DNA from: a virus
Strand: one strand, 5' to 3'
Virus record (IMG/VR): IMGVR_UViG_3300032304_000327
Coordinates: 1 to 23,884 of that record
DNA length: 23,884 nt
Shown: piece by piece, positions 1 to 23,884 of the stretch
Position numbering within the stretch: the stretch's first letter is position 1
How the letters are laid out: every line of letters starts with the position of its first letter
The notes under the pieces: model-generated
The model's database searches: none
The model's input: only the letters and a program-made list of their open reading frames with translations
Told to the model about the DNA's origin: nothing
Made by a program: the position numbers and the translations under genes

Positions 1-242
1 TTGGCTTCAATCTGGTCAAACAGTTTGCGGGTGTAGCCTTTGATTGGCGTATCCCCCCACGGCCCTATAATTTCTTTGATTTCATCATCCGTCAGCCCGA
101 CCCACCGCTGTGAGTGCTTGATTGCTCCTTGAATGATTTCAATTTCTTCTTTAATGGTGTCAGCAAGGTAAATAGGTTTTAATTTTCCGTCTAAGTCTTT
201 ATGTCTACCCAAAGACATAAGAAACTGTTCAATATCAATCAC
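1..242 (-). CDS. Phage protein of unknown function, cut by the window edge (mirror)
   Basis: Exact mirror of 23643-23884: GTG start at 242, reading leftward off the window with no stop. It carries the LTDDEIKEIIG motif. Both copies are truncated at the same base. Confidence 0.7.
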   Translation of the reverse strand, partial: MIDIEQFLMSLGRHKDLDGKLKPIYLADTIKEEIEIIQGAIKHSQRWVGLTDDEIKEIIGPWGDTPIKGYTRKLFDQIEA

Positions 243-484
243 GTGTTCTTTCCCTTAAGTTTGGCCTCTCCCCTTTGTCGGAAGGCTTCAAGCACATCAT
301 CGGTACAGCAAATCCCTTCGGAATCGCTGTTGTCTAGCACTATCAAGCGACACGCCTCCCGTTCCCGCTCCGCAGCTTGCCAATCTATTTCTGTCAGCAG
401 GTCTTCAATGGTGTCGCCATGCCCCGTGGCGTACCCGCGTTCGACCATCCACTTAGCCACCTTTTCCCGTGTTTCCGGCTTCAT
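239..484 (-). CDS. Small helical protein of unknown function (mirror)
   Basis: Identical to the 81-residue protein at 23401-23646; same GGAGG-led ATG, and same four-base overlaps with both neighbours. Confidence 0.7.
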   Translation of the reverse strand: MKPETREKVAKWMVERGYATGHGDTIEDLLTEIDWQAAEREREACRLIVLDNSDSEGICCTDDVLEAFRQRGEAKLKGKNT

Positions 485-741
485 TTCCAACTTCCTCCAC
501 GTGCGGTCATCTGACCCGCCAGAAACGCGGCTTTGTATGCGCCATCGTTTGTGTTAGCGCGCATCAGTTGTTCTTTAAGGTGGATAATCTCAGCTTGAGA
601 TTGTTTGTCTGCCGCATCCCACGCTGCAACCCATGCCTCGTACATATGCGCCTCTGTAGGGTTGTAACTACCCGCCGGGGAGTTTTTGCCGTGAGTAATT
701 GACCACCACTCACGCCAAGCTTCAGACATTTTGTTCTTCAT
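481..741 (-). CDS. Small Trp-rich protein (mirror)
   Basis: Identical to the 86-residue protein at 23144-23404, with the strong AAGGAG before its ATG at 741. Confidence 0.75.
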   Translation of the reverse strand: MKNKMSEAWREWWSITHGKNSPAGSYNPTEAHMYEAWVAAWDAADKQSQAEIIHLKEQLMRANTNDGAYKAAFLAGQMTARGGSWK

Positions 742-750
742 ACATACTCC

Positions 751-1416
751 TTAGTGTTTAGGGTTGAACTCGCACGACTTAACCGCGCACCAACCGCAGA
801 GCGGAGTGCGCGTTGGATTCCAAACATCATTGGCAAATGACGCCTCAAGCTTGGCGACGCGCAGCCTGTACTCCCACCACTCTGGCTCGATGTCGTCCCG
901 GCGCATGACTAAAGTCTTCATGTCGTTCTTGACAACAAACAACAGAGCCGAGTTGACCTTGCGTATGTGTGGGAAGTGCGCGAACACAAGCAACGACATC
1001 AGCTTTAGCTGATCTAAGTCAGGGTACTTGTTGTTACCTGTCTTGTAGTCAACAACCCACGCCGTCAAGTTGTCATCGTCAATGATTAGCAGGTCAGCAA
1101 TGCCACGCACCCACATGTTGTCAGCAGACCAGCGGCACGGGTTTAACTCAACAGTCAGCGCCATCTCATACTCGGGCAGCTTGCGTCCAGTCTTGGTCAG
1201 CAGTGCGTCGAGTGTTGGTTGAACAAAGTTGAACTGGGGAGGTAGTTCCGTTCCCTTGGATACGTATAGCTCAGCAGCCTTGTGCAACTCGGTGCCGTAC
1301 CGTGTAGCTTCTGTCTCTTGGAACGGGTAGTTCTTGAGCACCTTGATTTCGTGATACCGGCGAGCACAACCCTCGTAGTCCTTGAGACTTGAGTGGCTCC
1401 ACGTTACCGGCTTCAT
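751..1416 (-). CDS. Cas4/RecB-like PD-(D/E)XK nuclease (mirror)
   Basis: Identical to the nuclease at 22469-23134: His45, Asp108, Asp123, Lys125, Gln136 and the four cysteines Cys17, Cys207, Cys210, Cys215 of a likely Fe-S site. Confidence 0.92.
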   Translation of the reverse strand: MKPVTWSHSSLKDYEGCARRYHEIKVLKNYPFQETEATRYGTELHKAAELYVSKGTELPPQFNFVQPTLDALLTKTGRKLPEYEMALTVELNPCRWSADNMWVRGIADLLIIDDDNLTAWVVDYKTGNNKYPDLDQLKLMSLLVFAHFPHIRKVNSALLFVVKNDMKTLVMRRDDIEPEWWEYRLRVAKLEASFANDVWNPTRTPLCGWCAVKSCEFNPKH

Positions 1417-1709
1417 CTCTCACCCCGCAACCAGCGCTGGATCTGCGCCAGACGTAAGCCGAAGGCATCAACGAACTTCTCGTTGCTCTCTAGTTTGTGG
1501 TGCATATCTTTGAGTATCCCGTGGGTTACCTCATGCCAGAACGCATGCTCTAGTTCTTTGGGACTTACTTCTGTGTTGTCAAACCTGTAGCGTGACACCT
1601 CGATTGTTTGTTTGTCATAGTCGATATACCCAAGGTGATCATGCTTTAGATGGTCGAGCACGTGCACTGTGTACAGTTTGTTTCCTATCAGGACGTTTGG
1701 CGGTATCAC
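1413..1709 (-). CDS. Small HExxH zincin-like protein (mirror)
   Basis: Identical to the protein at 22176-22472, with HEVTH at residues 59-63 and a GTG start overlapping the polymerase stop. Confidence 0.85.
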   Translation of the reverse strand: MIPPNVLIGNKLYTVHVLDHLKHDHLGYIDYDKQTIEVSRYRFDNTEVSPKELEHAFWHEVTHGILKDMHHKLESNEKFVDAFGLRLAQIQRWLRGER

Positions 1710-3661
1710 TTCTTTGCATCCCCATATCGACGGTGCGCGCCAACGTCAGCGGCCAGAGGTATCCCCGGCATATAGCTCGGCTCTATAGTCATCTGTTCCA
1801 AGACCCACGCCTTGGCTTCATCAACCTCAGAGTCAGGCACCACGCAGATCAACTCATCGTGCACGGTGCCGACAACTGGGTAGCGTTTAGCTACGCGCAG
1901 CATGCCGTCAGTCATCACGATGCGAGCCAATGCTTGCGTGACGTTGTTCGTAATCTTCCCTGCGTAGAGCTTGGTCTCGTCCGGGCCATAGACCCATTGC
2001 AAGCGACCTTCCTCATCATCCGCTACTTGTTTGAAGTCATTGTAGCGTATATACATCCGGTTGGGAAGTAAGATTGCTTCCTTCTCAAACGTCAGACACT
2101 TGTGTGTGTACGGCGAACCGCCGTACAACGAATCCCCCAGTAGTTCTGTACACATATCCCAGAACGCTTTGACCGGCCATGCAGTGGAGCGGTAAGTGTC
2201 GATGATCATCTTGCTTGCTACGGCATGCGTTAGTATCTCGTCGTCGCTACAGATTCGTGGGATCTTGGCTAGCTTCTCTGTGTTGTCTCTCCATAGCAGG
2301 AACCTATGAATGTACGTAGCGTCCACACCCAAGGACTTGGCAAACTTCTTGTCGTACCGTACAGGCGGCGCGCCGAGGAACCCAACCATTAGCTGAGAAG
2401 CAAACGACTGCCAGCCTAGCCCGTACCCACACCCCAGTAGCGCAGACTTGGCAGACTGGCGCAGGTCAGGGTGCGACTCCTTGGTCATGCCCGGGATACG
2501 AAACATCTTTGATCCGAACTGTGCGTATGGATCAGCGCCAGAGCGGAAGATGTCCAGCATATCTTGGTAGTCAGCCAGCCACGCCAACACACGCGGCTCG
2601 ATCTGAGATAGGTCACCGACTACTAACTGATACCCCTCCGGTGCCATGATTGCACGGCGCAGGAACGACCCGCGCTTGAGGTTCTGCATGTTGATAGCGG
2701 ACCCCTTGCTTGCAGTCCACCGTCCCGTTGCCGCACCGTAATAGCTGAGCGGCACAGGCAGAGCGCCACGTCTACTGATGTCCGAGAACCGTTGCGCTCG
2801 GGTGCGTTCGCTCGTTGACTTTACTTTAAGACGAGCCTCACAGAGTAGAGCAGCCGGTTCATTCTCTCCGTTAAGTATTGATTGAAAGATGGCGTCCGTC
2901 TTAGCGAGCGCAAGCGTCTGCTTGCCAGTTGTCTTACTAAGCTTGTAGGGAGGATCGACCCCGACACTCTCAAGTAAACTCGCAAACTTCTGGTTCGACG
3001 CGAGGTCTTCCTCTTTAACATTGAGTCTCTCCAATAGTTCAGTCCGATAGCTGGACTCTTGACTGATTGCGTTGATCAACATGCCGCCATCAAGCAACAA
3101 CATGGGGCGGGTGTACATGCGCAGAGTCATGTCGATCAGACGCAACTCTTTAGCAGGGTAGTTAACTGACAGGCGTTCAAAGATAGCTTCGCACAACTCC
3201 ACATCGTGCGCGCAGTACGCCGCTAGCTCGGCCTCGATCTCAGGCGTGATCTCTTGCAGTCCGTTCGTGTCGTGCACCGCCCTGCCCTTGGGGGGCAGAC
3301 GGAAGTCAGCCGCTAGCTTTGCGAGTGAGTTACCTTGCTCGACTCCACGTAAGGCTCTTGCCATGCTGAGCGTGTCAAGGATAAAAGCTGGGTGACAGTT
3401 GTATTTCCACCCAAGGATGGCGACATCGAACTGCGCGTTGTGCGCAAGGATGGCTGTCTTGGTCCAGTCGTACTGCGCAAGGGCTTCACGCAAGTCGTCG
3501 CCGTTGTACCAACGAACGGGTTCATCTGATCCATACTCATGTAGGCAAGCGCCGAACACCTTGAAACGGGGGTCCCTAATATACTCTTCTGTCGTGAGTT
3601 TGGATAGTGTGTACTCTTTGCTGTCCCATCTCGTCTCAAAGTCTATTGTTACTATGTTCAA
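1706..3661 (-). CDS. Family A DNA polymerase with 3'-5' exonuclease (mirror)
   Basis: Identical to the 651-residue polymerase at 20224-22179: exonuclease IDFET at the N-terminus, motif A DLSQIEPR, motif B with Lys405/Tyr413, motif C HDE. TTG start at 3661. Confidence 0.97.
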   Translation of the reverse strand: MNIVTIDFETRWDSKEYTLSKLTTEEYIRDPRFKVFGACLHEYGSDEPVRWYNGDDLREALAQYDWTKTAILAHNAQFDVAILGWKYNCHPAFILDTLSMARALRGVEQGNSLAKLAADFRLPPKGRAVHDTNGLQEITPEIEAELAAYCAHDVELCEAIFERLSVNYPAKELRLIDMTLRMYTRPMLLLDGGMLINAISQESSYRTELLERLNVKEEDLASNQKFASLLESVGVDPPYKLSKTTGKQTLALAKTDAIFQSILNGENEPAALLCEARLKVKSTSERTRAQRFSDISRRGALPVPLSYYGAATGRWTASKGSAINMQNLKRGSFLRRAIMAPEGYQLVVGDLSQIEPRVLAWLADYQDMLDIFRSGADPYAQFGSKMFRIPGMTKESHPDLRQSAKSALLGCGYGLGWQSFASQLMVGFLGAPPVRYDKKFAKSLGVDATYIHRFLLWRDNTEKLAKIPRICSDDEILTHAVASKMIIDTYRSTAWPVKAFWDMCTELLGDSLYGGSPYTHKCLTFEKEAILLPNRMYIRYNDFKQVADDEEGRLQWVYGPDETKLYAGKITNNVTQALARIVMTDGMLRVAKRYPVVGTVHDELICVVPDSEVDEAKAWVLEQMTIEPSYMPGIPLAADVGAHRRYGDAKK

Positions 3662-3900
3662 TTGAACATCTCCCTTGGTGGCATGTCTGCACGGATTGAC
3701 TTATCTACAATGTGTGCCGTATGTGCAGCCATGTTGAATACATCTACTGGACCTGCGTTAAACGTGAGGATGGCTAGCTGCCCGTCCTTGTTATAAAGAA
3801 ACACCCCCTTCGCATTCTCTTCGGGAGTAATGCAACTCTTAACAAGCGCTGCCAAGTGTGTGGCGTTACGTACTGCTGACGTTACAGTTTCATCGTCCAT
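3658..3900 (-). CDS. Small protein of unknown function (mirror)
   Basis: Identical to the 80-residue protein at 19985-20227, overlapping the VRR-NUC gene on one side and the polymerase start on the other. Confidence 0.75.
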   Translation of the reverse strand: MDDETVTSAVRNATHLAALVKSCITPEENAKGVFLYNKDGQLAILTFNAGPVDVFNMAAHTAHIVDKSIRADMPPREMFN

Positions 3901-4178
3901 TTAATTAGCTCCTGAAGATCGGGTATGGTGTGTTCGTTAATGACCAGCGCAATACCACCTGCGTCAAATATTTTTTGGATATTCTTCTCTTGTAATGCAG
4001 TTGCCTTGTTTGTTCCTGACTTGGCTTCAATGCCAATGAACCTTCCGTTGCAACACACAAGGAAGTCAGGCACTCCTGCGTTTCCGTAGCCGCTACCTAT
4101 GGGCATGGCGTAGTACGCGCCAGCCGCATCAAGTATTGCGCGTATGTTCTTCTTAACCTTGGCTTCAGGCGTTGTCAT
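3882..4178 (-). CDS. VRR-NUC domain nuclease (mirror)
   Basis: Identical to the nuclease at 19707-20003, with GVPD (Asp38) and EAK (Glu51, Lys53). An ATG three bases earlier (4181) is possible but too near the GGAG. Confidence 0.92.
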   Translation of the reverse strand: MTTPEAKVKKNIRAILDAAGAYYAMPIGSGYGNAGVPDFLVCCNGRFIGIEAKSGTNKATALQEKNIQKIFDAGGIALVINEHTIPDLQELIKWTMKL

Positions 4179-4263
4179 CATTGCTCCAATTAGTGAGGGG
4201 GGAATGTATATTCCGCGCCCCCTCGGTTCGCGGTGAGGGAGTGAGGGCAGGGTCCAATCTTCC

Positions 4264-4345
4264 TAGCCGACAACCCCGCCCCCTGACGGGACACACAAGA
4301 TATACAAGCCGCGTGTGAGCACCGCCCGAGACACAGCGTCGGCTA
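4264..4345 (-). ncRNA. Structured 82-nt intergenic element (left arm)
   Basis: Mirror of 19540-19621: eight-bp closing helix starting on the DUF3310 stop codon, and two internal helices. Confidence 0.4.
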
Positions 4346-4615
4346 TGTTTTGGATTTCTTGGAAAGTTCTTCGCGTCGATCTATCTCGCGCTCAAGATAG
4401 AACCGCGCCTTGCGTAGATCCTCCAGCGGTTTGCCTTTGTGATCGGCTCGGGCAATATACTTGCCCACTTGCCACAGCAATGGGTTCTGGGGGAACCAAT
4501 CCTGCAACACATCAATCACTTCAAAGTAACCAAACGTGTAGTGCTTGGGCTTTGTCACTGGGTCGTCGCCCATAATAGCTGTCTTGAGGCTCTCACCTGT
4601 GTGTGCATAAATCAT
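4343..4615 (-). CDS. DUF3310 (SaV-like) protein (mirror)
   Basis: Identical to the 90-residue protein at 19270-19542, with the KPKHYTFGYFEVIDV signature. Confidence 0.9.
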   Translation of the reverse strand: MIYAHTGESLKTAIMGDDPVTKPKHYTFGYFEVIDVLQDWFPQNPLLWQVGKYIARADHKGKPLEDLRKARFYLEREIDRREELSKKSKT

Positions 4616-4887
4616 TTGGTGTTCCTATGATATGGGCGGCGACCAGTTATTTTGTGGATAGCTTCTGCGCTACGTATACCCACATTGTTTATGAACAACG
4701 TACTTGGGAACCCGCACCGATTTTGCGTGATCATCTTTGTCTGATACTCAGTCGTGCAGTCTTCACAGTAGCTATGTCCCGGGGTGGGAGGACTATGCCG
4801 CGCCATCTGTAACCAGCGCCCGTACTCGGCACCGGAAGCAAAGCACGCAGGATAGTCACGTATTACTGGCACATGTTCTTCAAGCAT
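4612..4887 (-). CDS. Small cysteine-containing protein (mirror)
   Basis: Identical to the 91-residue protein at 18998-19273, with the CEDC pair plus Cys15 and Cys58. Confidence 0.75.
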   Translation of the reverse strand: MLEEHVPVIRDYPACFASGAEYGRWLQMARHSPPTPGHSYCEDCTTEYQTKMITQNRCGFPSTLFINNVGIRSAEAIHKITGRRPYHRNTK

Positions 4888-4890
4888 ATG

Positions 4891-5421
4891 TCACCTGTCA
4901 AAGATGTCGGTAAGATTCTCAAGTAGCAGCCGCGCTGTGCGGATGTTCAGCGTGGACAGGATGTTCTCCACCTCTTGCTGTGCTGTGCCACGTGTTGCTG
5001 GCACGGGAGCGGGCGTTGCCACAGGCTTGGGTGCTGGCTTCGCCTTGCGCTGGGTGGGCGGCTTCGCCTTCTTGGGCAGTTGCTTTACTGTCTTGTATTC
5101 CTTGTGCTTTGTGTGCAGCTTCTTGTCTGCATCAGCGTAGAGCAAGTTGTAGCTGATCATCTGGTAGATATAAGAACTGACAGACCCACGGATCAGTCCC
5201 TTCTCGGACAGCTTGTCCGTGTACTGCGCAGCCGTCATGCCCGGGTTGTCCCGAACATAATTAAAGATGGTGTGCGCTATGGGTTGCTTTGCCGTGGGTA
5301 CTGCGCCGCTCAACTGAACATGCTGTACAACGGTTTCTTTTTCTATCCTTGGTGGGTTGATCTCTTTAACGATCTCCCACTGGTTGATTGCGGTCTTCAG
5401 TGCAGTTGCTATATCTTGCAT
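4891..5421 (-). CDS. Winged-helix-like protein with Lys/Pro/Ala linker (mirror)
   Basis: Identical to the 176-residue protein at 18464-18994; ATG at 5421 preceded by AAGGAG. Confidence 0.8.
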   Translation of the reverse strand: MQDIATALKTAINQWEIVKEINPPRIEKETVVQHVQLSGAVPTAKQPIAHTIFNYVRDNPGMTAAQYTDKLSEKGLIRGSVSSYIYQMISYNLLYADADKKLHTKHKEYKTVKQLPKKAKPPTQRKAKPAPKPVATPAPVPATRGTAQQEVENILSTLNIRTARLLLENLTDIFDR

Positions 5422-5433
5422 GGTGAACACTCC

Positions 5434-6330
5434 TTAGAAATTAAACTGTTCCAAGATGGCATCGACTGCCTTCTTGGTGTCTTCACGAACAGCCTCGTTC
5501 TTGCGCAACTCGTCCGGCGTGACCCCAATCAGGGCGCACTCCAGCGAATACCGCGCAGCTTCTAGGCTCGGATCTTGTACTACATTCAAAGCTTTGACAA
5601 CATCGCATAATTCTAACGCGCCGTCAACCACAGAATCGTAGATCCTGCGAGCTTTCGGTTCTCCATCCACGATGTCTGTCGTCAACCTATCTGACATACG
5701 CTTGAGGTGGTCGCCAAGGCGAGCACGAACGTCTGCCATGGCTTTCTCAACCCGCTCCGCTGTGAGTTTCTCTAGCCGTTTCAACCACATATCACGGGCT
5801 TCGTTCATCGCGGAGTTGCCTACGTCAATACGGAAGTCACCCGCCGTGGGTACGGGCAGGCAATTCACAGAGAAGGCAAAGCGTTGCGAGATGTCGGCCT
5901 GTGTTGGGTAGTCTTGCCGCTTGAACATATCACCGAGAGCCATGGCTTGCGCCACGATGAGGGTCGGATACACATCAATGAACGAACGGACCTCGGCCCA
6001 GAACAGATCACCGAACTCGGTCATCTTCTTGTCCACCTCTAAGTACATAGCCTGCGGAAGCATGCGCTGCCCGTTGTCGGACCAAGGCATGGTGTTGTAG
6101 TTGAGATATGTACGCGCTGCACTCACGATCTGCTGGATCTTATCCAGTTCCGTGCGCCCGGCCAGCAGGTTCTTGTTCACACGTGCGGCATCCTTAGCCG
6201 CCGCGTTCTTGTTGGTAACAACCTCCTCAGTCGTAGACTTGTCCAGCTTGCGTGCTGTCCACACACTGGCGTTGAACTCCACCAGTACTGAACAGGTGTC
6301 GAGGTTGTAGCGAGGGATACTCATGTCCAT
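5434..6330 (-). CDS. Helical third member of the AAA+/VWA trio (mirror)
   Basis: Identical to the 298-residue protein at 17555-18451, two bases after the VWA gene. Confidence 0.8.
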   Translation of the reverse strand: MDMSIPRYNLDTCSVLVEFNASVWTARKLDKSTTEEVVTNKNAAAKDAARVNKNLLAGRTELDKIQQIVSAARTYLNYNTMPWSDNGQRMLPQAMYLEVDKKMTEFGDLFWAEVRSFIDVYPTLIVAQAMALGDMFKRQDYPTQADISQRFAFSVNCLPVPTAGDFRIDVGNSAMNEARDMWLKRLEKLTAERVEKAMADVRARLGDHLKRMSDRLTTDIVDGEPKARRIYDSVVDGALELCDVVKALNVVQDPSLEAARYSLECALIGVTPDELRKNEAVREDTKKAVDAILEQFNF

Positions 6331-6332
6331 AA

Positions 6333-7538
6333 TCAAAGCTCCGTTGGGATACGTACTAACTTGCCAAACCGAGGAACGAAGTGATCGTTCCCCACCACAC
6401 CCCACAACGCTGGCACTTCGTTGTGCGGTTCACCACCGATGTAACCGTCTGTGATCCAGATCATCGCCTTGGGCTTGATCTCCTTAGCTTTCATGTAGTC
6501 CACCACGCACTGCGGATCAGTGCCGCCGCCCCCCTTGGGCTTGAGTAGCGTAGCGATACTGCCGTAGTCATCTGGCTTGAACACTTGGTCGTGACACACT
6601 GCTGAGTCCCACCACAGGACACGCACACTACTAGGCTTGGTGTCCTGACAGATCCGCGCCACCTCACCGAAGATCAGCGTGTAGTACGGACCCATAGACC
6701 CGGAGGTATCGCATGCGATAACCAAGTCCCCGACCGTCTCGTCGTAGCGTGATGGGAAGATGTAGCCGCTTGCAAACATGCGCTTGTTGGGCGGTATCAA
6801 CCGACCATTCTCATCCCCGCGAGTCATCTCCTCGATGAACTCCCGCATAGGGTCGATCCAGTTGGTGCTCCGGTCTTGCGCCAGTCCAAAGATGTCCCTG
6901 CCACCCGACCCCTTACCGGCCAGCTTGCGCGCCAAGAACTCGCCCTGACGCAGTGCGCTATCAACCTCCTTCTGGATCTGCTCTTGCTCCTCTGGCGCAA
7001 ACTCTTGGTCGCCGTCGATGTGTTCGTCGAAGTCATGCTCGCCATCCTTGTCTTCTGTTGGGTCGTCGCCGCGTTCCTCTGCCTCTTTGATCAGTATCTT
7101 CATGATGTCTATGAAGGACATCCCGTCGAACCGCTTGTCGATACACAGCCCATCACACGGGCGCTCCACGAACTCAAAGTTGGGGTCCAGTTCCTCGATC
7201 CACCCATTGATCACGTAGTCCTGCGCCTGATTGGTCAGCCTCGGATACTTCTTGGATAGTTGTTTGTACATGGGCAAGACGCAGTGCATCAGCGCCTTGT
7301 GACCGTTCTCATGTAGCGCCAAGTACCGCAGTTGCTTGCGGTCCAGTCCCTTAGAGAACTCCTCACCGTAGTGAACGTCCCTGCCGTTGGTTGCCGCAGT
7401 CTTGATCTGCTTGATCTTGTTCTGACCAAGCATGATCACGCCCGCCATCACCGCGAACTTCGGATGCCTAGCGCAGTCGATGTTGACCGCAGTTATGCGC
7501 ATATCTAGTGGGAGTTTCTCCCATGAATGCAAGCTCAT
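6333..7538 (-). CDS. HExxH metallopeptidase-like protein with VWA domain (mirror)
   Basis: Identical to the protein at 16347-17552: HENGH at 76-80 and MIDAS DTSGS at 277-281, ribosome site AGGGGG. Confidence 0.9.
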   Translation of the reverse strand: MSLHSWEKLPLDMRITAVNIDCARHPKFAVMAGVIMLGQNKIKQIKTAATNGRDVHYGEEFSKGLDRKQLRYLALHENGHKALMHCVLPMYKQLSKKYPRLTNQAQDYVINGWIEELDPNFEFVERPCDGLCIDKRFDGMSFIDIMKILIKEAEERGDDPTEDKDGEHDFDEHIDGDQEFAPEEQEQIQKEVDSALRQGEFLARKLAGKGSGGRDIFGLAQDRSTNWIDPMREFIEEMTRGDENGRLIPPNKRMFASGYIFPSRYDETVGDLVIACDTSGSMGPYYTLIFGEVARICQDTKPSSVRVLWWDSAVCHDQVFKPDDYGSIATLLKPKGGGGTDPQCVVDYMKAKEIKPKAMIWITDGYIGGEPHNEVPALWGVVGNDHFVPRFGKLVRIPTEL

Positions 7539-7578
7539 ATCACACCCCCTTTTTTGCAAGGACAAGCCTTGTCGAACA

Positions 7579-8700
7579 TCAAAGCATCATCTTGGTGTCG
7601 TTCTGCATTTGCAGGTACACAGCCAGCGTCAGGTAGATAGCCTTGCGGTTGCTCCCAGTCACGCCATTGACGAACATGCACTGCACCTCACGCGCCATGC
7701 GGCGCACATACGCACACGCCAACTGCGCATCCGTGCGGTTGTCGATCACGGACAGGAGCTTCATAGCTTGCTGGATCTGCGCCATCTTGTTGTCAGACAC
7801 GGGCGCAGTCAGCGGGTCGTGTAGCACACGGGCAATCGAACAGTTGCTCTCACCCAGCGCACGGAACGCCATGAACTCAGCCGCCACCAACTTACCAACA
7901 GCACCGGCCAGCACCATCTCCAAAGTAAACTCGTCGGTCAGACCCTTGGATTCGTGCGCCGTGAGGATCGTACCCATCCTGCTAATGGAGCGCGGCGTCG
8001 CGTACTTGCCGCCCTTCTTGCGTGGGTTGTAGATCCTGCCATTGGTACGGGACAAGTCCTTGCCGTGATGGATACCCCCCGGCTCGTAGTCCATGAACGA
8101 CTCCATAACCTGTGGGTAGGACGCTACGTAGGCAATCACCATGGGGTGCACACCCGCACCCTGCGCATACTGCACGTACTCCTCGGCAGTAGACTTGCGT
8201 ACGCTGATCGTAATCAGCCTGTCCATGATGTGCTCTTGGATCACATCACCCAAGCCCTCGATGGCTAGATTCGTAGCGCACATGGTCAGGCTACCCTTGG
8301 GAAAGTAGTAGTCGCCGACCCGCCCCTCGTAGACCAATGGCGCTAACACGTTGTGCATATAGCGTGTGGTCTTGCCAATCTCATCGAAGCACAGCATTAC
8401 AGGTCGGGAGTTGGCTACACCATGGCGATTGAGCTTACTGACACCAAGCCGCTCGTTGGGTAGCTCGCGGGATACACCCGCCTCCCGGTCGATGTCGGGC
8501 ATGAACACAGAACCGTCGCTCAACTGAGAGCAATCAATCGGCTCGATAAAGATGTGGTTGGCGTACGCTTGCTTCTTGGCAAGATTACGAAACAGTTGGG
8601 TCTTGCCGATACCATGCTCGCCTTGGATGAGGATGGTCTCCTCCCCGGTAAGCGACTCGATAGCGGCCTCGGCTTGCGCCAGTGATAAGAAGTCCTGCAT
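7579..8700 (-). CDS. MoxR/CobS-like AAA+ ATPase (mirror)
   Basis: Identical to the ATPase at 15185-16306: Walker A GEHGIGKT, Walker B ending in Asp106-Glu107, sensor 1 CATN. Confidence 0.9.
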   Translation of the reverse strand: MQDFLSLAQAEAAIESLTGEETILIQGEHGIGKTQLFRNLAKKQAYANHIFIEPIDCSQLSDGSVFMPDIDREAGVSRELPNERLGVSKLNRHGVANSRPVMLCFDEIGKTTRYMHNVLAPLVYEGRVGDYYFPKGSLTMCATNLAIEGLGDVIQEHIMDRLITISVRKSTAEEYVQYAQGAGVHPMVIAYVASYPQVMESFMDYEPGGIHHGKDLSRTNGRIYNPRKKGGKYATPRSISRMGTILTAHESKGLTDEFTLEMVLAGAVGKLVAAEFMAFRALGESNCSIARVLHDPLTAPVSDNKMAQIQQAMKLLSVIDNRTDAQLACAYVRRMAREVQCMFVNGVTGSNRKAIYLTLAVYLQMQNDTKMML

Positions 8701-8705
8701 TTCAT

Positions 8706-9632: not shown

Positions 9633-9647
9633 TTCGTTCTCCCAAAG

Positions 9648-9884
9648 TTATTGAATCTGCGCTTCACGCATCTTGGTGATGTCGTTCTGCGCAAGTCTGC
9701 TGGTCAGCGTGACCAGCCCGTCGAGGATGGCGCGTTCCCTTATCCCCCGCGCCATACCACTGTTCTCGTAACGTACCGTGTACCTACGGCGCGGCTCTGC
9801 GGTCACCATCACCGTCGTGCCCTTGACCGCATACCATGCGTTCGCATACGCGGTCGCCAAGAGTGTGCGTTCTTCCTCCATCAT
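9648..9884 (-). CDS. Small basic protein of unknown function (mirror)
   Basis: Identical to the 78-residue protein at 14001-14237. Confidence 0.7.
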   Translation of the reverse strand: MMEEERTLLATAYANAWYAVKGTTVMVTAEPRRRYTVRYENSGMARGIRERAILDGLVTLTSRLAQNDITKMREAQIQ

Positions 9885-14237: not shown

Positions 14238-14252
14238 CTTTGGGAGAACGAA

Positions 14253-15179: not shown

Positions 15180-15184
15180 ATGAA

Positions 15185-16306: not shown

Positions 16307-16346
16307 TGTTCGACAAGGCTTGTCCTTGCAAAAAAGGGGGTGTGAT

Positions 16347-17552
16347 ATGAGCTTGCATTCATGGGAGAAACTCCCACTAGATATGCGCATAACTGCGGTC
16401 AACATCGACTGCGCTAGGCATCCGAAGTTCGCGGTGATGGCGGGCGTGATCATGCTTGGTCAGAACAAGATCAAGCAGATCAAGACTGCGGCAACCAACG
16501 GCAGGGACGTTCACTACGGTGAGGAGTTCTCTAAGGGACTGGACCGCAAGCAACTGCGGTACTTGGCGCTACATGAGAACGGTCACAAGGCGCTGATGCA
16601 CTGCGTCTTGCCCATGTACAAACAACTATCCAAGAAGTATCCGAGGCTGACCAATCAGGCGCAGGACTACGTGATCAATGGGTGGATCGAGGAACTGGAC
16701 CCCAACTTTGAGTTCGTGGAGCGCCCGTGTGATGGGCTGTGTATCGACAAGCGGTTCGACGGGATGTCCTTCATAGACATCATGAAGATACTGATCAAAG
16801 AGGCAGAGGAACGCGGCGACGACCCAACAGAAGACAAGGATGGCGAGCATGACTTCGACGAACACATCGACGGCGACCAAGAGTTTGCGCCAGAGGAGCA
16901 AGAGCAGATCCAGAAGGAGGTTGATAGCGCACTGCGTCAGGGCGAGTTCTTGGCGCGCAAGCTGGCCGGTAAGGGGTCGGGTGGCAGGGACATCTTTGGA
17001 CTGGCGCAAGACCGGAGCACCAACTGGATCGACCCTATGCGGGAGTTCATCGAGGAGATGACTCGCGGGGATGAGAATGGTCGGTTGATACCGCCCAACA
17101 AGCGCATGTTTGCAAGCGGCTACATCTTCCCATCACGCTACGACGAGACGGTCGGGGACTTGGTTATCGCATGCGATACCTCCGGGTCTATGGGTCCGTA
17201 CTACACGCTGATCTTCGGTGAGGTGGCGCGGATCTGTCAGGACACCAAGCCTAGTAGTGTGCGTGTCCTGTGGTGGGACTCAGCAGTGTGTCACGACCAA
17301 GTGTTCAAGCCAGATGACTACGGCAGTATCGCTACGCTACTCAAGCCCAAGGGGGGCGGCGGCACTGATCCGCAGTGCGTGGTGGACTACATGAAAGCTA
17401 AGGAGATCAAGCCCAAGGCGATGATCTGGATCACAGACGGTTACATCGGTGGTGAACCGCACAACGAAGTGCCAGCGTTGTGGGGTGTGGTGGGGAACGA
17501 TCACTTCGTTCCTCGGTTTGGCAAGTTAGTACGTATCCCAACGGAGCTTTGA
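16347..17552 (+). CDS. HExxH metallopeptidase-like protein with C-terminal VWA domain
   Basis: A 401-residue, two-domain protein. The N-terminal part has a zincin motif HENGH at residues 76-80 within a helix (RYLALHENGHKALMH) followed by a second helix with WIEEL, as in the putative metallopeptidase domain of the DUF2201 type. An acidic linker (about 157-195) leads to a VWA-like domain with a MIDAS site: DTSGS at 277-281, GGGGTD around 337-341 and TDG at 363-365. Such proteins pair with MoxR/CobS AAA+ ATPases, and the ATPase gene is directly upstream. A good ribosome site (AGGGGG, six bases from ATG 16347) sets the start; a TTG 27 bases earlier is less likely. Proteolysis is inferred, not shown. 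Confidence 0.9.
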   Translation: MSLHSWEKLPLDMRITAVNIDCARHPKFAVMAGVIMLGQNKIKQIKTAATNGRDVHYGEEFSKGLDRKQLRYLALHENGHKALMHCVLPMYKQLSKKYPRLTNQAQDYVINGWIEELDPNFEFVERPCDGLCIDKRFDGMSFIDIMKILIKEAEERGDDPTEDKDGEHDFDEHIDGDQEFAPEEQEQIQKEVDSALRQGEFLARKLAGKGSGGRDIFGLAQDRSTNWIDPMREFIEEMTRGDENGRLIPPNKRMFASGYIFPSRYDETVGDLVIACDTSGSMGPYYTLIFGEVARICQDTKPSSVRVLWWDSAVCHDQVFKPDDYGSIATLLKPKGGGGTDPQCVVDYMKAKEIKPKAMIWITDGYIGGEPHNEVPALWGVVGNDHFVPRFGKLVRIPTEL

Positions 17553-17554
17553 TT

Positions 17555-18451
17555 ATGGACATGAGTATCCCTCGCTACAACCTCGACACCTGTTCAGTAC
17601 TGGTGGAGTTCAACGCCAGTGTGTGGACAGCACGCAAGCTGGACAAGTCTACGACTGAGGAGGTTGTTACCAACAAGAACGCGGCGGCTAAGGATGCCGC
17701 ACGTGTGAACAAGAACCTGCTGGCCGGGCGCACGGAACTGGATAAGATCCAGCAGATCGTGAGTGCAGCGCGTACATATCTCAACTACAACACCATGCCT
17801 TGGTCCGACAACGGGCAGCGCATGCTTCCGCAGGCTATGTACTTAGAGGTGGACAAGAAGATGACCGAGTTCGGTGATCTGTTCTGGGCCGAGGTCCGTT
17901 CGTTCATTGATGTGTATCCGACCCTCATCGTGGCGCAAGCCATGGCTCTCGGTGATATGTTCAAGCGGCAAGACTACCCAACACAGGCCGACATCTCGCA
18001 ACGCTTTGCCTTCTCTGTGAATTGCCTGCCCGTACCCACGGCGGGTGACTTCCGTATTGACGTAGGCAACTCCGCGATGAACGAAGCCCGTGATATGTGG
18101 TTGAAACGGCTAGAGAAACTCACAGCGGAGCGGGTTGAGAAAGCCATGGCAGACGTTCGTGCTCGCCTTGGCGACCACCTCAAGCGTATGTCAGATAGGT
18201 TGACGACAGACATCGTGGATGGAGAACCGAAAGCTCGCAGGATCTACGATTCTGTGGTTGACGGCGCGTTAGAATTATGCGATGTTGTCAAAGCTTTGAA
18301 TGTAGTACAAGATCCGAGCCTAGAAGCTGCGCGGTATTCGCTGGAGTGCGCCCTGATTGGGGTCACGCCGGACGAGTTGCGCAAGAACGAGGCTGTTCGT
18401 GAAGACACCAAGAAGGCAGTCGATGCCATCTTGGAACAGTTTAATTTCTAA
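17555..18451 (+). CDS. Helical third member of the AAA+/VWA trio
   Basis: A 298-residue, mostly helical protein beginning MDMSIPRYNLDTCSVLVEF. An N-terminal strand-rich stretch is followed by long helices (about 30-75 and 175-245) likely to form coiled coils. It follows the metallopeptidase/VWA gene by two bases, with GGAG nine bases before ATG 17555. From memory, phages that carry CobS-like and CobT-like genes often have a third gene of about 300 residues (DUF3150 type); size and place fit, but I cannot confirm the family from sequence alone. It may be a substrate or adaptor of the ATPase complex. A longer frame from 17480 overlaps the VWA gene and lacks a ribosome site. Confidence 0.8.
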   Translation: MDMSIPRYNLDTCSVLVEFNASVWTARKLDKSTTEEVVTNKNAAAKDAARVNKNLLAGRTELDKIQQIVSAARTYLNYNTMPWSDNGQRMLPQAMYLEVDKKMTEFGDLFWAEVRSFIDVYPTLIVAQAMALGDMFKRQDYPTQADISQRFAFSVNCLPVPTAGDFRIDVGNSAMNEARDMWLKRLEKLTAERVEKAMADVRARLGDHLKRMSDRLTTDIVDGEPKARRIYDSVVDGALELCDVVKALNVVQDPSLEAARYSLECALIGVTPDELRKNEAVREDTKKAVDAILEQFNF

Positions 18452-18463
18452 GGAGTGTTCACC

Positions 18464-18994
18464 ATGCAAGATATAGCAACTGCACTGAAGACCGCAATCA
18501 ACCAGTGGGAGATCGTTAAAGAGATCAACCCACCAAGGATAGAAAAAGAAACCGTTGTACAGCATGTTCAGTTGAGCGGCGCAGTACCCACGGCAAAGCA
18601 ACCCATAGCGCACACCATCTTTAATTATGTTCGGGACAACCCGGGCATGACGGCTGCGCAGTACACGGACAAGCTGTCCGAGAAGGGACTGATCCGTGGG
18701 TCTGTCAGTTCTTATATCTACCAGATGATCAGCTACAACTTGCTCTACGCTGATGCAGACAAGAAGCTGCACACAAAGCACAAGGAATACAAGACAGTAA
18801 AGCAACTGCCCAAGAAGGCGAAGCCGCCCACCCAGCGCAAGGCGAAGCCAGCACCCAAGCCTGTGGCAACGCCCGCTCCCGTGCCAGCAACACGTGGCAC
18901 AGCACAGCAAGAGGTGGAGAACATCCTGTCCACGCTGAACATCCGCACAGCGCGGCTGCTACTTGAGAATCTTACCGACATCTTTGACAGGTGA
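18464..18994 (+). CDS. Winged-helix-like protein with Lys/Pro/Ala linker
   Basis: A 176-residue protein. Residues about 47-112 look like a winged helix: IAHTIFNYVRDNPGMTAAQ, then GLIRGSVSSYIYQMIS as a possible recognition helix, then a hydrophobic wing (LLYADADKKLH). A flexible Lys/Pro/Ala-rich linker (113-145) joins a C-terminal amphipathic helix (146-176), a common place for oligomerisation or partner binding. This suggests a DNA-binding regulator or replication accessory factor; no family is recognised. ATG 18464 follows AAGGAG at 18450-18455 by eight bases. The GTG at 18455 overlaps that site and is rejected. Confidence 0.8.
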   Translation: MQDIATALKTAINQWEIVKEINPPRIEKETVVQHVQLSGAVPTAKQPIAHTIFNYVRDNPGMTAAQYTDKLSEKGLIRGSVSSYIYQMISYNLLYADADKKLHTKHKEYKTVKQLPKKAKPPTQRKAKPAPKPVATPAPVPATRGTAQQEVENILSTLNIRTARLLLENLTDIFDR

Positions 18995-18997
18995 CAT

Positions 18998-19273
18998 ATG
19001 CTTGAAGAACATGTGCCAGTAATACGTGACTATCCTGCGTGCTTTGCTTCCGGTGCCGAGTACGGGCGCTGGTTACAGATGGCGCGGCATAGTCCTCCCA
19101 CCCCGGGACATAGCTACTGTGAAGACTGCACGACTGAGTATCAGACAAAGATGATCACGCAAAATCGGTGCGGGTTCCCAAGTACGTTGTTCATAAACAA
19201 TGTGGGTATACGTAGCGCAGAAGCTATCCACAAAATAACTGGTCGCCGCCCATATCATAGGAACACCAAATGA
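18998..19273 (+). CDS. Small cysteine-containing protein, possible zinc binding
   Basis: A 91-residue protein beginning MLEEHVPVIRDYPACF. It has Cys15, a CEDC pair at 41-44 and Cys58, which could make one zinc site, within HSPPTPGHSYCEDC. The C-terminal half is basic and ends in a helix. Start codon ATG 18998 is three bases after the previous stop, with AGG as a modest ribosome site. The function is unknown; it lies between the winged-helix protein and the DUF3310 protein and overlaps the latter by four bases (ATGA). Confidence 0.75.
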   Translation: MLEEHVPVIRDYPACFASGAEYGRWLQMARHSPPTPGHSYCEDCTTEYQTKMITQNRCGFPSTLFINNVGIRSAEAIHKITGRRPYHRNTK

Positions 19274-19542
19274 TTTATGCACACACAGGTGAGAGCCTCA
19301 AGACAGCTATTATGGGCGACGACCCAGTGACAAAGCCCAAGCACTACACGTTTGGTTACTTTGAAGTGATTGATGTGTTGCAGGATTGGTTCCCCCAGAA
19401 CCCATTGCTGTGGCAAGTGGGCAAGTATATTGCCCGAGCCGATCACAAAGGCAAACCGCTGGAGGATCTACGCAAGGCGCGGTTCTATCTTGAGCGCGAG
19501 ATAGATCGACGCGAAGAACTTTCCAAGAAATCCAAAACATAG
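19270..19542 (+). CDS. DUF3310 (SaV-like) protein
   Basis: A 90-residue protein carrying the DUF3310 signature: DPVTKPKHYTFGYFEVIDV near residues 18-36, then a helix with WQVGKYIARADHKG and LRKARFYLEREI. The family is short, widespread in tailed phages, and often found near replication and nucleotide-metabolism genes; its biochemical role is not established. The ATG overlaps the previous stop, with AGGAA upstream. An internal ATG at residue 15 precedes the domain directly and is a possible alternative start. The TAG stop forms the first three bases of a structured element described separately. Confidence 0.9.
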   Translation: MIYAHTGESLKTAIMGDDPVTKPKHYTFGYFEVIDVLQDWFPQNPLLWQVGKYIARADHKGKPLEDLRKARFYLEREIDRREELSKKSKT

Positions 19543-19621
19543 CCGACGCTGTGTCTCGGGCGGTGCTCACACGCGGCTTGTATATCTTGTGTGTCCCGTC
19601 AGGGGGCGGGGTTGTCGGCTA
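19540..19621 (+). ncRNA. Structured 82-nt intergenic element (right arm)
   Basis: TAGCCGAC (19540-19547) pairs perfectly with GTCGGCTA (19614-19621) to close a domain. Inside, CACAC (19568-19572) pairs with GTGTG (19589-19593), and CCCGTC (19595-19600) pairs with GGCGGG (19605-19610) over an AGGG loop. The closing helix starts on the stop codon of the DUF3310 gene. There is no T run after it, so it is not a plain intrinsic terminator. It may be a small phage RNA, a processing site, or a leader for the nuclease-polymerase operon. It does not fold as a tRNA. The rest of the gap (19622-19706) is purine/pyrimidine-biased with a GGAAT/ATTCC dyad and no clear promoter. Confidence 0.4.
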
Positions 19622-19706
19622 GGAAGATTGGACCCTGCCCTCACTCCCTCACCGCGAACCGAGGGGGCGCGGAATATACATTCCCCCCTCACTAATTGGA
19701 GCAATG

Positions 19707-20003
19707 ATGACAACGCCTGAAGCCAAGGTTAAGAAGAACATACGCGCAATACTTGATGCGGCTGGCGCGTACTACGCCATGCCCATAGGTAGCGGCTACG
19801 GAAACGCAGGAGTGCCTGACTTCCTTGTGTGTTGCAACGGAAGGTTCATTGGCATTGAAGCCAAGTCAGGAACAAACAAGGCAACTGCATTACAAGAGAA
19901 GAATATCCAAAAAATATTTGACGCAGGTGGTATTGCGCTGGTCATTAACGAACACACCATACCCGATCTTCAGGAGCTAATTAAATGGACGATGAAACTG
20001 TAA
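19707..20003 (+). CDS. VRR-NUC domain nuclease
   Basis: A 98-residue single-domain protein with the VRR-NUC layout: a helix with PEAKVKKNIRAIL (Glu5), GNAGVPDF giving Asp38 of the G-[IV]-PD motif, and IGIEAKSG giving Glu51 and Lys53 of E-x-K, followed by LQEKN (Gln63). These are the metal-binding PD-(D/E)XK residues, so it is probably active. Stand-alone VRR-NUC proteins are common in phage replication modules and are thought to act as structure-specific nucleases, including on Holliday junctions in some cases. Start 19707 gives five bases from GGAG; ATG 19704 is only two bases from it. It overlaps the next gene. Confidence 0.92.
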   Translation: MTTPEAKVKKNIRAILDAAGAYYAMPIGSGYGNAGVPDFLVCCNGRFIGIEAKSGTNKATALQEKNIQKIFDAGGIALVINEHTIPDLQELIKWTMKL

Positions 20004-20227
20004 CGTCAGCAGTACGTAACGCCACACACTTGGCAGCGCTTGTTAAGAGTTGCATTACTCCCGAAGAGAATGCGAAGGGGGTGTTTCTTTATAACAAGGA
20101 CGGGCAGCTAGCCATCCTCACGTTTAACGCAGGTCCAGTAGATGTATTCAACATGGCTGCACATACGGCACACATTGTAGATAAGTCAATCCGTGCAGAC
20201 ATGCCACCAAGGGAGATGTTCAATTGA
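19985..20227 (+). CDS. Small protein of unknown function
   Basis: An 80-residue protein beginning MDDETVTSAVRNATHLAAL. An N-terminal helix is followed by a strand pair (GVFLYNKDGQLAILTF) and a helix (VFNMAAHTAHIVDKSI). No family is recognised. AGGAG lies about eight bases before ATG 19985. Its first 19 bases overlap the end of the VRR-NUC gene in another frame, and its TGA stop overlaps the TTG start of the DNA polymerase, so it bridges the two in a coupled set. Confidence 0.75.
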   Translation: MDDETVTSAVRNATHLAALVKSCITPEENAKGVFLYNKDGQLAILTFNAGPVDVFNMAAHTAHIVDKSIRADMPPREMFN

Positions 20228-22179
20228 ACATAGTAACAATAGACTTTGAGACGAGATGGGACAGCAAAGAGTACACACTATCCAAACTCACGACAGAAGA
20301 GTATATTAGGGACCCCCGTTTCAAGGTGTTCGGCGCTTGCCTACATGAGTATGGATCAGATGAACCCGTTCGTTGGTACAACGGCGACGACTTGCGTGAA
20401 GCCCTTGCGCAGTACGACTGGACCAAGACAGCCATCCTTGCGCACAACGCGCAGTTCGATGTCGCCATCCTTGGGTGGAAATACAACTGTCACCCAGCTT
20501 TTATCCTTGACACGCTCAGCATGGCAAGAGCCTTACGTGGAGTCGAGCAAGGTAACTCACTCGCAAAGCTAGCGGCTGACTTCCGTCTGCCCCCCAAGGG
20601 CAGGGCGGTGCACGACACGAACGGACTGCAAGAGATCACGCCTGAGATCGAGGCCGAGCTAGCGGCGTACTGCGCGCACGATGTGGAGTTGTGCGAAGCT
20701 ATCTTTGAACGCCTGTCAGTTAACTACCCTGCTAAAGAGTTGCGTCTGATCGACATGACTCTGCGCATGTACACCCGCCCCATGTTGTTGCTTGATGGCG
20801 GCATGTTGATCAACGCAATCAGTCAAGAGTCCAGCTATCGGACTGAACTATTGGAGAGACTCAATGTTAAAGAGGAAGACCTCGCGTCGAACCAGAAGTT
20901 TGCGAGTTTACTTGAGAGTGTCGGGGTCGATCCTCCCTACAAGCTTAGTAAGACAACTGGCAAGCAGACGCTTGCGCTCGCTAAGACGGACGCCATCTTT
21001 CAATCAATACTTAACGGAGAGAATGAACCGGCTGCTCTACTCTGTGAGGCTCGTCTTAAAGTAAAGTCAACGAGCGAACGCACCCGAGCGCAACGGTTCT
21101 CGGACATCAGTAGACGTGGCGCTCTGCCTGTGCCGCTCAGCTATTACGGTGCGGCAACGGGACGGTGGACTGCAAGCAAGGGGTCCGCTATCAACATGCA
21201 GAACCTCAAGCGCGGGTCGTTCCTGCGCCGTGCAATCATGGCACCGGAGGGGTATCAGTTAGTAGTCGGTGACCTATCTCAGATCGAGCCGCGTGTGTTG
21301 GCGTGGCTGGCTGACTACCAAGATATGCTGGACATCTTCCGCTCTGGCGCTGATCCATACGCACAGTTCGGATCAAAGATGTTTCGTATCCCGGGCATGA
21401 CCAAGGAGTCGCACCCTGACCTGCGCCAGTCTGCCAAGTCTGCGCTACTGGGGTGTGGGTACGGGCTAGGCTGGCAGTCGTTTGCTTCTCAGCTAATGGT
21501 TGGGTTCCTCGGCGCGCCGCCTGTACGGTACGACAAGAAGTTTGCCAAGTCCTTGGGTGTGGACGCTACGTACATTCATAGGTTCCTGCTATGGAGAGAC
21601 AACACAGAGAAGCTAGCCAAGATCCCACGAATCTGTAGCGACGACGAGATACTAACGCATGCCGTAGCAAGCAAGATGATCATCGACACTTACCGCTCCA
21701 CTGCATGGCCGGTCAAAGCGTTCTGGGATATGTGTACAGAACTACTGGGGGATTCGTTGTACGGCGGTTCGCCGTACACACACAAGTGTCTGACGTTTGA
21801 GAAGGAAGCAATCTTACTTCCCAACCGGATGTATATACGCTACAATGACTTCAAACAAGTAGCGGATGATGAGGAAGGTCGCTTGCAATGGGTCTATGGC
21901 CCGGACGAGACCAAGCTCTACGCAGGGAAGATTACGAACAACGTCACGCAAGCATTGGCTCGCATCGTGATGACTGACGGCATGCTGCGCGTAGCTAAAC
22001 GCTACCCAGTTGTCGGCACCGTGCACGATGAGTTGATCTGCGTGGTGCCTGACTCTGAGGTTGATGAAGCCAAGGCGTGGGTCTTGGAACAGATGACTAT
22101 AGAGCCGAGCTATATGCCGGGGATACCTCTGGCCGCTGACGTTGGCGCGCACCGTCGATATGGGGATGCAAAGAAGTGA
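20224..22179 (+). CDS. Family A DNA polymerase with 3'-5' exonuclease
   Basis: A 651-residue replicative polymerase of the PolI type. The DEDDy exonuclease shows IDFET (Asp7, Glu9), AHNAQFD (Asp79) and YCAHD (Tyr149, Asp153). The polymerase has TGRW at 312-315, motif A DLSQIEPR from Asp350, motif B RQSAK...GYG (Arg401, Lys405, Tyr413) and motif C HDE at 601-603. All catalytic residues are present. The 5'-3' exonuclease domain of bacterial PolI is absent, as is usual for phage enzymes. The start is TTG 20224: GGGAG at 20211-20215 sits eight bases upstream, the first residues already form exonuclease motif I, and the codon overlaps the previous stop (TTGA). Use of TTG may limit its level. Confidence 0.97.
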   Translation: MNIVTIDFETRWDSKEYTLSKLTTEEYIRDPRFKVFGACLHEYGSDEPVRWYNGDDLREALAQYDWTKTAILAHNAQFDVAILGWKYNCHPAFILDTLSMARALRGVEQGNSLAKLAADFRLPPKGRAVHDTNGLQEITPEIEAELAAYCAHDVELCEAIFERLSVNYPAKELRLIDMTLRMYTRPMLLLDGGMLINAISQESSYRTELLERLNVKEEDLASNQKFASLLESVGVDPPYKLSKTTGKQTLALAKTDAIFQSILNGENEPAALLCEARLKVKSTSERTRAQRFSDISRRGALPVPLSYYGAATGRWTASKGSAINMQNLKRGSFLRRAIMAPEGYQLVVGDLSQIEPRVLAWLADYQDMLDIFRSGADPYAQFGSKMFRIPGMTKESHPDLRQSAKSALLGCGYGLGWQSFASQLMVGFLGAPPVRYDKKFAKSLGVDATYIHRFLLWRDNTEKLAKIPRICSDDEILTHAVASKMIIDTYRSTAWPVKAFWDMCTELLGDSLYGGSPYTHKCLTFEKEAILLPNRMYIRYNDFKQVADDEEGRLQWVYGPDETKLYAGKITNNVTQALARIVMTDGMLRVAKRYPVVGTVHDELICVVPDSEVDEAKAWVLEQMTIEPSYMPGIPLAADVGAHRRYGDAKK

Positions 22180-22472
22180 TACCGCCAAACGTCCTGATAG
22201 GAAACAAACTGTACACAGTGCACGTGCTCGACCATCTAAAGCATGATCACCTTGGGTATATCGACTATGACAAACAAACAATCGAGGTGTCACGCTACAG
22301 GTTTGACAACACAGAAGTAAGTCCCAAAGAACTAGAGCATGCGTTCTGGCATGAGGTAACCCACGGGATACTCAAAGATATGCACCACAAACTAGAGAGC
22401 AACGAGAAGTTCGTTGATGCCTTCGGCTTACGTCTGGCGCAGATCCAGCGCTGGTTGCGGGGTGAGAGATGA
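22176..22472 (+). CDS. Small HExxH zincin-like protein
   Basis: A 98-residue protein with HEVTH at residues 59-63 in AFWHEVTHGILKDM, preceded by strands (KLYTVHVLDH, TIEVSRYRF). This is the minimal zincin-like fold seen in several small phage proteins; the third zinc ligand is not obvious. GTG start at 22176 overlaps the polymerase stop (GTGA), with GGGGA about nine bases upstream. Its neighbours are replication enzymes, so it may process or bind a replication protein, but peptidase activity is only inferred from the motif. Confidence 0.85.
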   Translation: MIPPNVLIGNKLYTVHVLDHLKHDHLGYIDYDKQTIEVSRYRFDNTEVSPKELEHAFWHEVTHGILKDMHHKLESNEKFVDAFGLRLAQIQRWLRGER

Positions 22473-23134
22473 AGCCGGTAACGTGGAGCCACTCAAGTCT
22501 CAAGGACTACGAGGGTTGTGCTCGCCGGTATCACGAAATCAAGGTGCTCAAGAACTACCCGTTCCAAGAGACAGAAGCTACACGGTACGGCACCGAGTTG
22601 CACAAGGCTGCTGAGCTATACGTATCCAAGGGAACGGAACTACCTCCCCAGTTCAACTTTGTTCAACCAACACTCGACGCACTGCTGACCAAGACTGGAC
22701 GCAAGCTGCCCGAGTATGAGATGGCGCTGACTGTTGAGTTAAACCCGTGCCGCTGGTCTGCTGACAACATGTGGGTGCGTGGCATTGCTGACCTGCTAAT
22801 CATTGACGATGACAACTTGACGGCGTGGGTTGTTGACTACAAGACAGGTAACAACAAGTACCCTGACTTAGATCAGCTAAAGCTGATGTCGTTGCTTGTG
22901 TTCGCGCACTTCCCACACATACGCAAGGTCAACTCGGCTCTGTTGTTTGTTGTCAAGAACGACATGAAGACTTTAGTCATGCGCCGGGACGACATCGAGC
23001 CAGAGTGGTGGGAGTACAGGCTGCGCGTCGCCAAGCTTGAGGCGTCATTTGCCAATGATGTTTGGAATCCAACGCGCACTCCGCTCTGCGGTTGGTGCGC
23101 GGTTAAGTCGTGCGAGTTCAACCCTAAACACTAA
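22469..23134 (+). CDS. Cas4/RecB-like PD-(D/E)XK nuclease with four cysteines
   Basis: A 221-residue nuclease of the PDDEXK_1/Cas4 group: SLKDYEGCARRY at the N-terminus, GTELHKA (His45), GIADLL (Asp108), VVDYKTG (Asp123, Lys125) and QLKLM (Gln136). Cys17 near the N-terminus and Cys207, Cys210, Cys215 at the C-terminus repeat the one-plus-three cysteine plan that holds a 4Fe-4S cluster in Cas4 and AddB-type nucleases. The fold would give single-stranded DNA exonuclease or end-processing activity in phage recombination or replication. No cas genes or arrays are near. The ATG overlaps the previous stop (ATGA), with GGGGTGAG just upstream. Confidence 0.92.
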   Translation: MKPVTWSHSSLKDYEGCARRYHEIKVLKNYPFQETEATRYGTELHKAAELYVSKGTELPPQFNFVQPTLDALLTKTGRKLPEYEMALTVELNPCRWSADNMWVRGIADLLIIDDDNLTAWVVDYKTGNNKYPDLDQLKLMSLLVFAHFPHIRKVNSALLFVVKNDMKTLVMRRDDIEPEWWEYRLRVAKLEASFANDVWNPTRTPLCGWCAVKSCEFNPKH

Positions 23135-23143
23135 GGAGTATGT

Positions 23144-23404
23144 ATGAAGAACAAAATGTCTGAAGCTTGGCGTGAGTGGTGGTCAATTACTCACGGCAAA
23201 AACTCCCCGGCGGGTAGTTACAACCCTACAGAGGCGCATATGTACGAGGCATGGGTTGCAGCGTGGGATGCGGCAGACAAACAATCTCAAGCTGAGATTA
23301 TCCACCTTAAAGAACAACTGATGCGCGCTAACACAAACGATGGCGCATACAAAGCCGCGTTTCTGGCGGGTCAGATGACCGCACGTGGAGGAAGTTGGAA
23401 ATGA
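23144..23404 (+). CDS. Small Trp-rich protein of unknown function
   Basis: An 86-residue protein beginning MKNKMSEAWREWWSIT. The tryptophan-rich N-terminal part contains PTEAHMYEAWVAAWDAAD, a pattern often seen in small phage proteins; the C-terminal part is a helix (EIIHLKEQLMRAN) and a short GQMTARGGSW tail. No enzymatic motif is seen. A strong AAGGAG lies about six bases before ATG 23144, the best ribosome site in this stretch. Confidence 0.75.
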   Translation: MKNKMSEAWREWWSITHGKNSPAGSYNPTEAHMYEAWVAAWDAADKQSQAEIIHLKEQLMRANTNDGAYKAAFLAGQMTARGGSWK

Positions 23405-23646
23405 AGCCGGAAACACGGGAAAAGGTGGCTAAGTGGATGGTCGAACGCGGGTACGCCACGGGGCATGGCGACACCATTGAAGACCTGCTGACAGAAATAG
23501 ATTGGCAAGCTGCGGAGCGGGAACGGGAGGCGTGTCGCTTGATAGTGCTAGACAACAGCGATTCCGAAGGGATTTGCTGTACCGATGATGTGCTTGAAGC
23601 CTTCCGACAAAGGGGAGAGGCCAAACTTAAGGGAAAGAACACGTGA
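23401..23646 (+). CDS. Small protein of unknown function
   Basis: An 81-residue protein beginning MKPETREKVAKWMVERGYATG. It is charged and helical, with GDTIEDLLTEIDWQAAEREREA in the middle and a Lys-rich end. No family is recognised. ATG 23401 has GGAGG nine bases upstream (23387-23391) and overlaps the previous stop (ATGA); a TTG six bases earlier is too close to the ribosome site. It is coupled to the partial gene that follows (GTGA). Confidence 0.7.
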   Translation: MKPETREKVAKWMVERGYATGHGDTIEDLLTEIDWQAAEREREACRLIVLDNSDSEGICCTDDVLEAFRQRGEAKLKGKNT

Positions 23647-23884
23647 TTGATATTGAACAGTTTCTTATGTCTTTGGGTAGACATAAAGACTTAGACGGAA
23701 AATTAAAACCTATTTACCTTGCTGACACCATTAAAGAAGAAATTGAAATCATTCAAGGAGCAATCAAGCACTCACAGCGGTGGGTCGGGCTGACGGATGA
23801 TGAAATCAAAGAAATTATAGGGCCGTGGGGGGATACGCCAATCAAAGGCTACACCCGCAAACTGTTTGACCAGATTGAAGCCAA
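23643..23884 (+). CDS. Phage protein of unknown function, cut by the window edge
   Basis: An open frame of 80 full codons from GTG 23643 to the last base with no stop. It begins MIDIEQFLMSLGRHKDLDGK and contains SQRWVGLTDDEIKEIIG, a short acidic motif that I associate with small hypothetical proteins of many tailed phages, then GYTRKLFDQIEA. The start overlaps the previous stop (GTGA), with GGGA about eight bases upstream. The true C-terminus lies outside the window. The first codons are poorer in G+C than the rest of the arm. Confidence 0.7.
   Translation, partial: MIDIEQFLMSLGRHKDLDGKLKPIYLADTIKEEIEIIQGAIKHSQRWVGLTDDEIKEIIGPWGDTPIKGYTRKLFDQIEA

Follow-up and report, generated by a model that had tools for sequence, protein, structure and literature searches.

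A mirror-symmetric phage contig, very probably folded back at a natural terminator palindrome

Two kinds of described systems place a DNA sequence next to its own reverse complement. The first comprises artefacts: palindromic reads made by hairpins are documented for library preparation (PMC3946424), inverted chimeras for MDA (PMC1855051, PMC13265396), and contigs with repeated genomes for IMG/VR (PMC8116208). The second comprises the telomere phages N15, phiKO2 and PY54, which carry the TelN protelomerase and its telRL site, and in which the protelomerase gene lies beside the telomere site (PMC10612081). The N15 record shows this arrangement, its site being a 56-bp palindrome (record positions 24775-24830) located inside a continuous virion genome. 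The contig described below resembles the first kind in that a sequence runs into its own reverse complement, turning where it is self-complementary, and differs in that the entire 23.9-kb contig is palindromic and that the turn falls on a natural perfect palindrome. It resembles the second kind in that a palindrome is embedded in a phage genome which relatives carry without a break, and differs in the lack of a protelomerase and of a conserved target, in its terminator anatomy and in its gene order.

The stretch analysed here (the window, 23,884 nucleotides) is a complete IMG/VR virus record (G000:C1:1-23884). It is identical to its own reverse complement, with 0 mismatches over 23,884 positions and with neither a spacer nor an N. 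The axis of symmetry is 11942/11943, where two arms of 11,942 bp abut, the first ending in CGCGCGGCT and the second starting with AGCCGCGCG. The spacer-less palindrome with identical arms reported in the preliminary description is thus exact, as is its statement that one arm carries all the information: arm 2 (11943-23884) adds no unique sequence to arm 1 (1-11942). The longest spacer-less palindrome within one arm measures 16 bp; in 50 shuffles of the arm this length averaged 13 bp and peaked at 22 bp, which excludes a chance origin of the mirror. Both arms break off at one and the same arbitrary position within a gene, truncated in arm 1 as an open ORF (3-242, minus strand). Two related contigs, L007 and L011, match the arm to its final base and then extend further; the outer ends are arbitrary cuts and not natural termini.

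Arm 1 is a real phage genome fragment, for which IMG/VR relatives display 83-96% DNA identity across most of its length. Arm 2 is almost certainly artefactual, as relatives carry other unique DNA past the axis. The axis sequence AACCCGCGCGCGGCTAGCCGCGCGCGGGTT (11928-11957), with its centre at the window axis, is found exactly in two independent contigs, L087 and L088, which are 83-86% identical to the arm. There it forms a natural perfect palindrome of 30 bp that stands isolated, the DNA on its far side being unique in both contigs instead of a mirror arm. In L090, 93% identical to the arm across the first 2 kb, the palindrome has one mismatch, while L007, L091 (the same contig as L009) and L012 possess different hairpins at the axis position and all run on. 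In six relatives (L007, L087, L088, L090, L091/L009 and L012), the sequence thus continues past the axis, the DNA upstream of it differs from the mirror arm, and the phage genome neither ends nor turns there. This continuation is seen at 74-93% identity and not in the same strain, a search for a same-strain contig crossing the axis having returned none from a collection in which such records may be missing. The 1.5 kb upstream of the axis are 87-91% identical among L007, L087, L088 and L090, and the window arm matches just 27-37 bases there. Three readings had been offered in the preliminary description, namely a hairpin telomere, a head-to-head intermediate and an artefact. The continuation past the axis and the natural palindrome located there strengthen the last, and the same relatives weaken the first. 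A hairpin telomere had been held incompatible with sequence running from the axis into unrelated, unique DNA instead of a mirror arm; this is what is observed as far as the relatives show, the comparison covering them and not the sample itself. A concrete cause had been missed: a natural 30-bp perfect palindrome, a terminator, lies precisely at the axis.

Several pieces of evidence point to this terminator function. Read in the sense of the upstream gene, the GC-rich stem lies just past the stop codon and is followed by the T-rich GGTTTTCG; the ORF on that strand stops ~20-45 bp short of the hairpin stem. Substitutions in this ORF cluster at codon position 3 (22/10/74 at the three positions, L092 versus L087), which marks it as a real gene and places the hairpin where its terminator belongs. 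A minus-strand ORF (L092 8543-9133) was considered as the upstream gene and dropped, the substitution pattern favouring the plus-strand ORF ending at 9462. The axis hairpin is detected by a terminator scan, and its RNA fold amounts to -28.6 and -30.3 kcal/mol in L087 and L088, respectively (z about -5). Among five distinct versions of the hairpin, 98% of the cells pair and 6 of the 12 pairs are changed on both sides; shuffles yielded 3.1 such pairs and slid registers 0, the latter control being biased in favour of the structure as this was derived from the same five sequences. The T-rich tail is present on one side of the palindrome only, the side matching the direction of the upstream gene. 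Judged from these sequence features, the axis palindrome is the stem of an intrinsic terminator of the upstream gene; turnover of its sequence with kept pairing is expected of a terminator, but not of a telomere site that must be recognised by its sequence. The palindrome of the window strain may exceed 30 bp, since everything beside the axis is mirrored and the window thus cannot reveal its own palindrome length.

The axis hairpin belongs to a set of three tandem hairpins between two transcription units (window 11851-11957, mirrored at 11928-12034). The middle hairpin, CGGGTTTTCGCTTG...CAAGCGAAAACCCG (11890-11933, minus strand), flanks the axis core and is strongly conserved in sequence in the six relatives. 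Its TTTTCGYTTGYCYGCGTTTTCGTGGRCAARCGAAAA is almost invariant in all six, and the outer two hairpins are terminator-like and variable in sequence. This near-invariance suggests a role for the middle hairpin beyond termination. The third, terminator-like hairpin, GACTCCCGGACATTGTGTCCGGGAGTT with a T run (11851-11877, minus strand), precedes the first gene of the arm. A short copy of it is found ~0.65 kb upstream in L088 (L088:1967-1993), and in L091 ~0.28 kb of extra DNA lies between the hairpin block and the remainder of the arm (L091:2541-2960). The terminator block thus seems to have been duplicated or rearranged in relatives.

A perfect palindrome at the axis is also what an N15-type linear plasmid-prophage would exhibit: the palindrome would be a telRL-like site cut and closed by a protelomerase, and the contig would read round the closed end. 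As the N15 site lies inside a continuous genome, continuity in the relatives alone does not exclude such a telomere. The candidate was rejected on other evidence. The protelomerase family PF16684 (ResT-TelK) has 0 matches in the window, where the preliminary description had likewise seen no such gene, and 0 in 16 related records (five of ~62-66 kb, many of them fragments), while the N15 control was detected at 1.9e-26. The axis is flanked by a conserved ORF without a family match and by small early genes, not by a protelomerase gene. A protelomerase requires a specific, sequence-conserved target site. The sequence of the palindrome turns over between relatives with compensated pairs; in L090 a mismatch breaks it, and in L012 the loop is not palindromic. 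The T-rich tail is one-sided, following the direction in which the upstream gene is read. The probability of a telomere of this type is close to negligible.

The axis could alternatively be the physical end of a linear virion DNA, of which end repair or snap-back produced the mirror. In L092, genes for the terminase large subunit and the portal protein are located further upstream on the other strand, and the proximity of the divergent terminase gene, within ~2 kb, would suit a virion end. Conversely, six relatives are continuous across the axis, an observation that is weaker against this reading as continuity could also stem from concatemers, and the axis is a terminator hairpin beside a stop codon. 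A virion end is the least probable of the explanations considered here and, if true, would still make the contig the same type of artefact. A related candidate, the genome end of an N4-like phage, was dropped: the polymerase is nearest to those of phage KPP25 and of Rhizobium phages, and related contigs span the point.

The best explanation of the contig is a fold-back artefact that started from the terminator palindrome, and we are highly confident that its symmetry is not real biology. An 11.9-kb phage fragment would have been written twice, once forward and once reverse-complemented, turning at the natural spacer-less perfect palindrome of ~30 bp that serves as terminator of the upstream gene; for this sample, the path would run from the arm through the palindrome into the reverse complement of the arm. 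Two routes may lead there. In the first, the assembler would fold back, the true branch being lost or weak. When the natural locus of L088 is represented as a de Bruijn graph, k values of 21-29 give a fork exactly where the palindrome ends, with the real continuation on one side and a return along the reverse complement of the traversed path on the other; from k=31 upward there is no fork. Given a weak true branch, an assembler could then output the arm followed by its reverse complement. If the palindrome of the window strain is just 30 bp long, assemblers with a smallest k of at least 31 would need physical snap-back reads and not graph structure. In the second route, strands of the library or amplification with a 3' end in the palindrome would snap back and copy themselves, giving real chimeric reads. 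Against snap-back stands the first MDA study, by Lasken and Stockwell, which ruled out a major contribution of hairpin self-priming in MDA (PMC1855051). A literature search on assembler-specific hairpin folding found no directly matching paper. Both routes lead to identical arms, to an axis on the sole long natural palindrome and to outer ends at the same arbitrary base in a gene. The arms are indeed identical, the turn lies at a natural self-complementary sequence and the genome of the relatives continues past it; as the arm holds no other spacer-less palindrome longer than 16 bp, the axis is at the one expected fold-back site.

The same GC-rich perfect palindrome would be a plausible fold-back site in vivo. 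A genuine head-to-head inverted dimer of the phage DNA could arise in the cell, for instance if replication folded back where the palindrome was nicked or broken, and would presumably show two identical arms as well. No relative displays such a dimer, the fetched loci containing 0 spacer-less palindromes of at least 40 bp, and a minority dimer is not expected to displace the normal junction in an assembly. This reading is very unlikely, and it is extremely unlikely that the phage truly forms head-to-head inverted dimers or closed ends at the terminator palindrome without a recognisable protelomerase.

The fold-back reading calls for caution, as a perfect terminator palindrome can mirror a metagenome contig and mimic a 12-kb inverted terminal repeat or a hairpin telomere. 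In CheckV, inverted repeats of at least 20 bp at the ends of a contig count towards completeness (PMC8116208), so that mirror contigs could pass as closed genomes with doubled gene counts. Screening for whole-contig self-complementarity would remove them.

The family-matched genes of arm 1 are all on the minus strand and point outward from the axis. They encode an AAA ATPase (7579-8784; phrog_1297, 4.9e-37, Pfam AAA matches being weak with 0 above the cut-off), a VWA-like/DUF2201 protein (6333-7565; PF09967, 5.9e-12), a DUF3310 protein, a small nuclease (3882-4181; phrog_93 “endonuclease”, 4.8e-15), a family A DNA polymerase (1706-3661; PF00476, 1.2e-24, and phrog_17, 1.2e-75) and a PD-(D/E)XK exonuclease (751-1416; PF12705, 4e-15, and phrog_69, 8.3e-20). 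The VWA/DUF2201 gene adjoins the AAA ATPase gene (window 6333-8784), a pairing that resembles MoxR-VWA systems. The PHROGs name of the VWA/DUF2201 family is “HNH endonuclease”, a label to which the Pfam match gives no support. The DNA polymerase served as the anchor for finding relatives, and its search of viral contigs returned 322 of them, with top identities of 93-97%. The closest annotated phages by this protein are the Rhizobium phages RHph_TM3_14A/TM27A and the Pseudomonas phage KPP25 (Kochitakasuvirus), at ~31-33% identity and with genomes of 61-64 kb; KPP25 also has a RecB-type exonuclease close to its polymerase, as in the arm. Megablast of the arm against phage records gave 0 DNA-level matches, the window representing an uncultivated relative seen in metagenome contigs. 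The source of the arm is an ordinary uncultivated tailed phage, and the fragment is its replication module. A 54-nt inverted repeat, 74% complementary, is also present in the arm (window 10977-11030 and 11224-11277) and contains AGGTGGTCCACC / GGTGGACCACCT. TATATA-rich hairpins lie between its two arms, and a matching inverted segment is found in L007, L087, L088 and L009.
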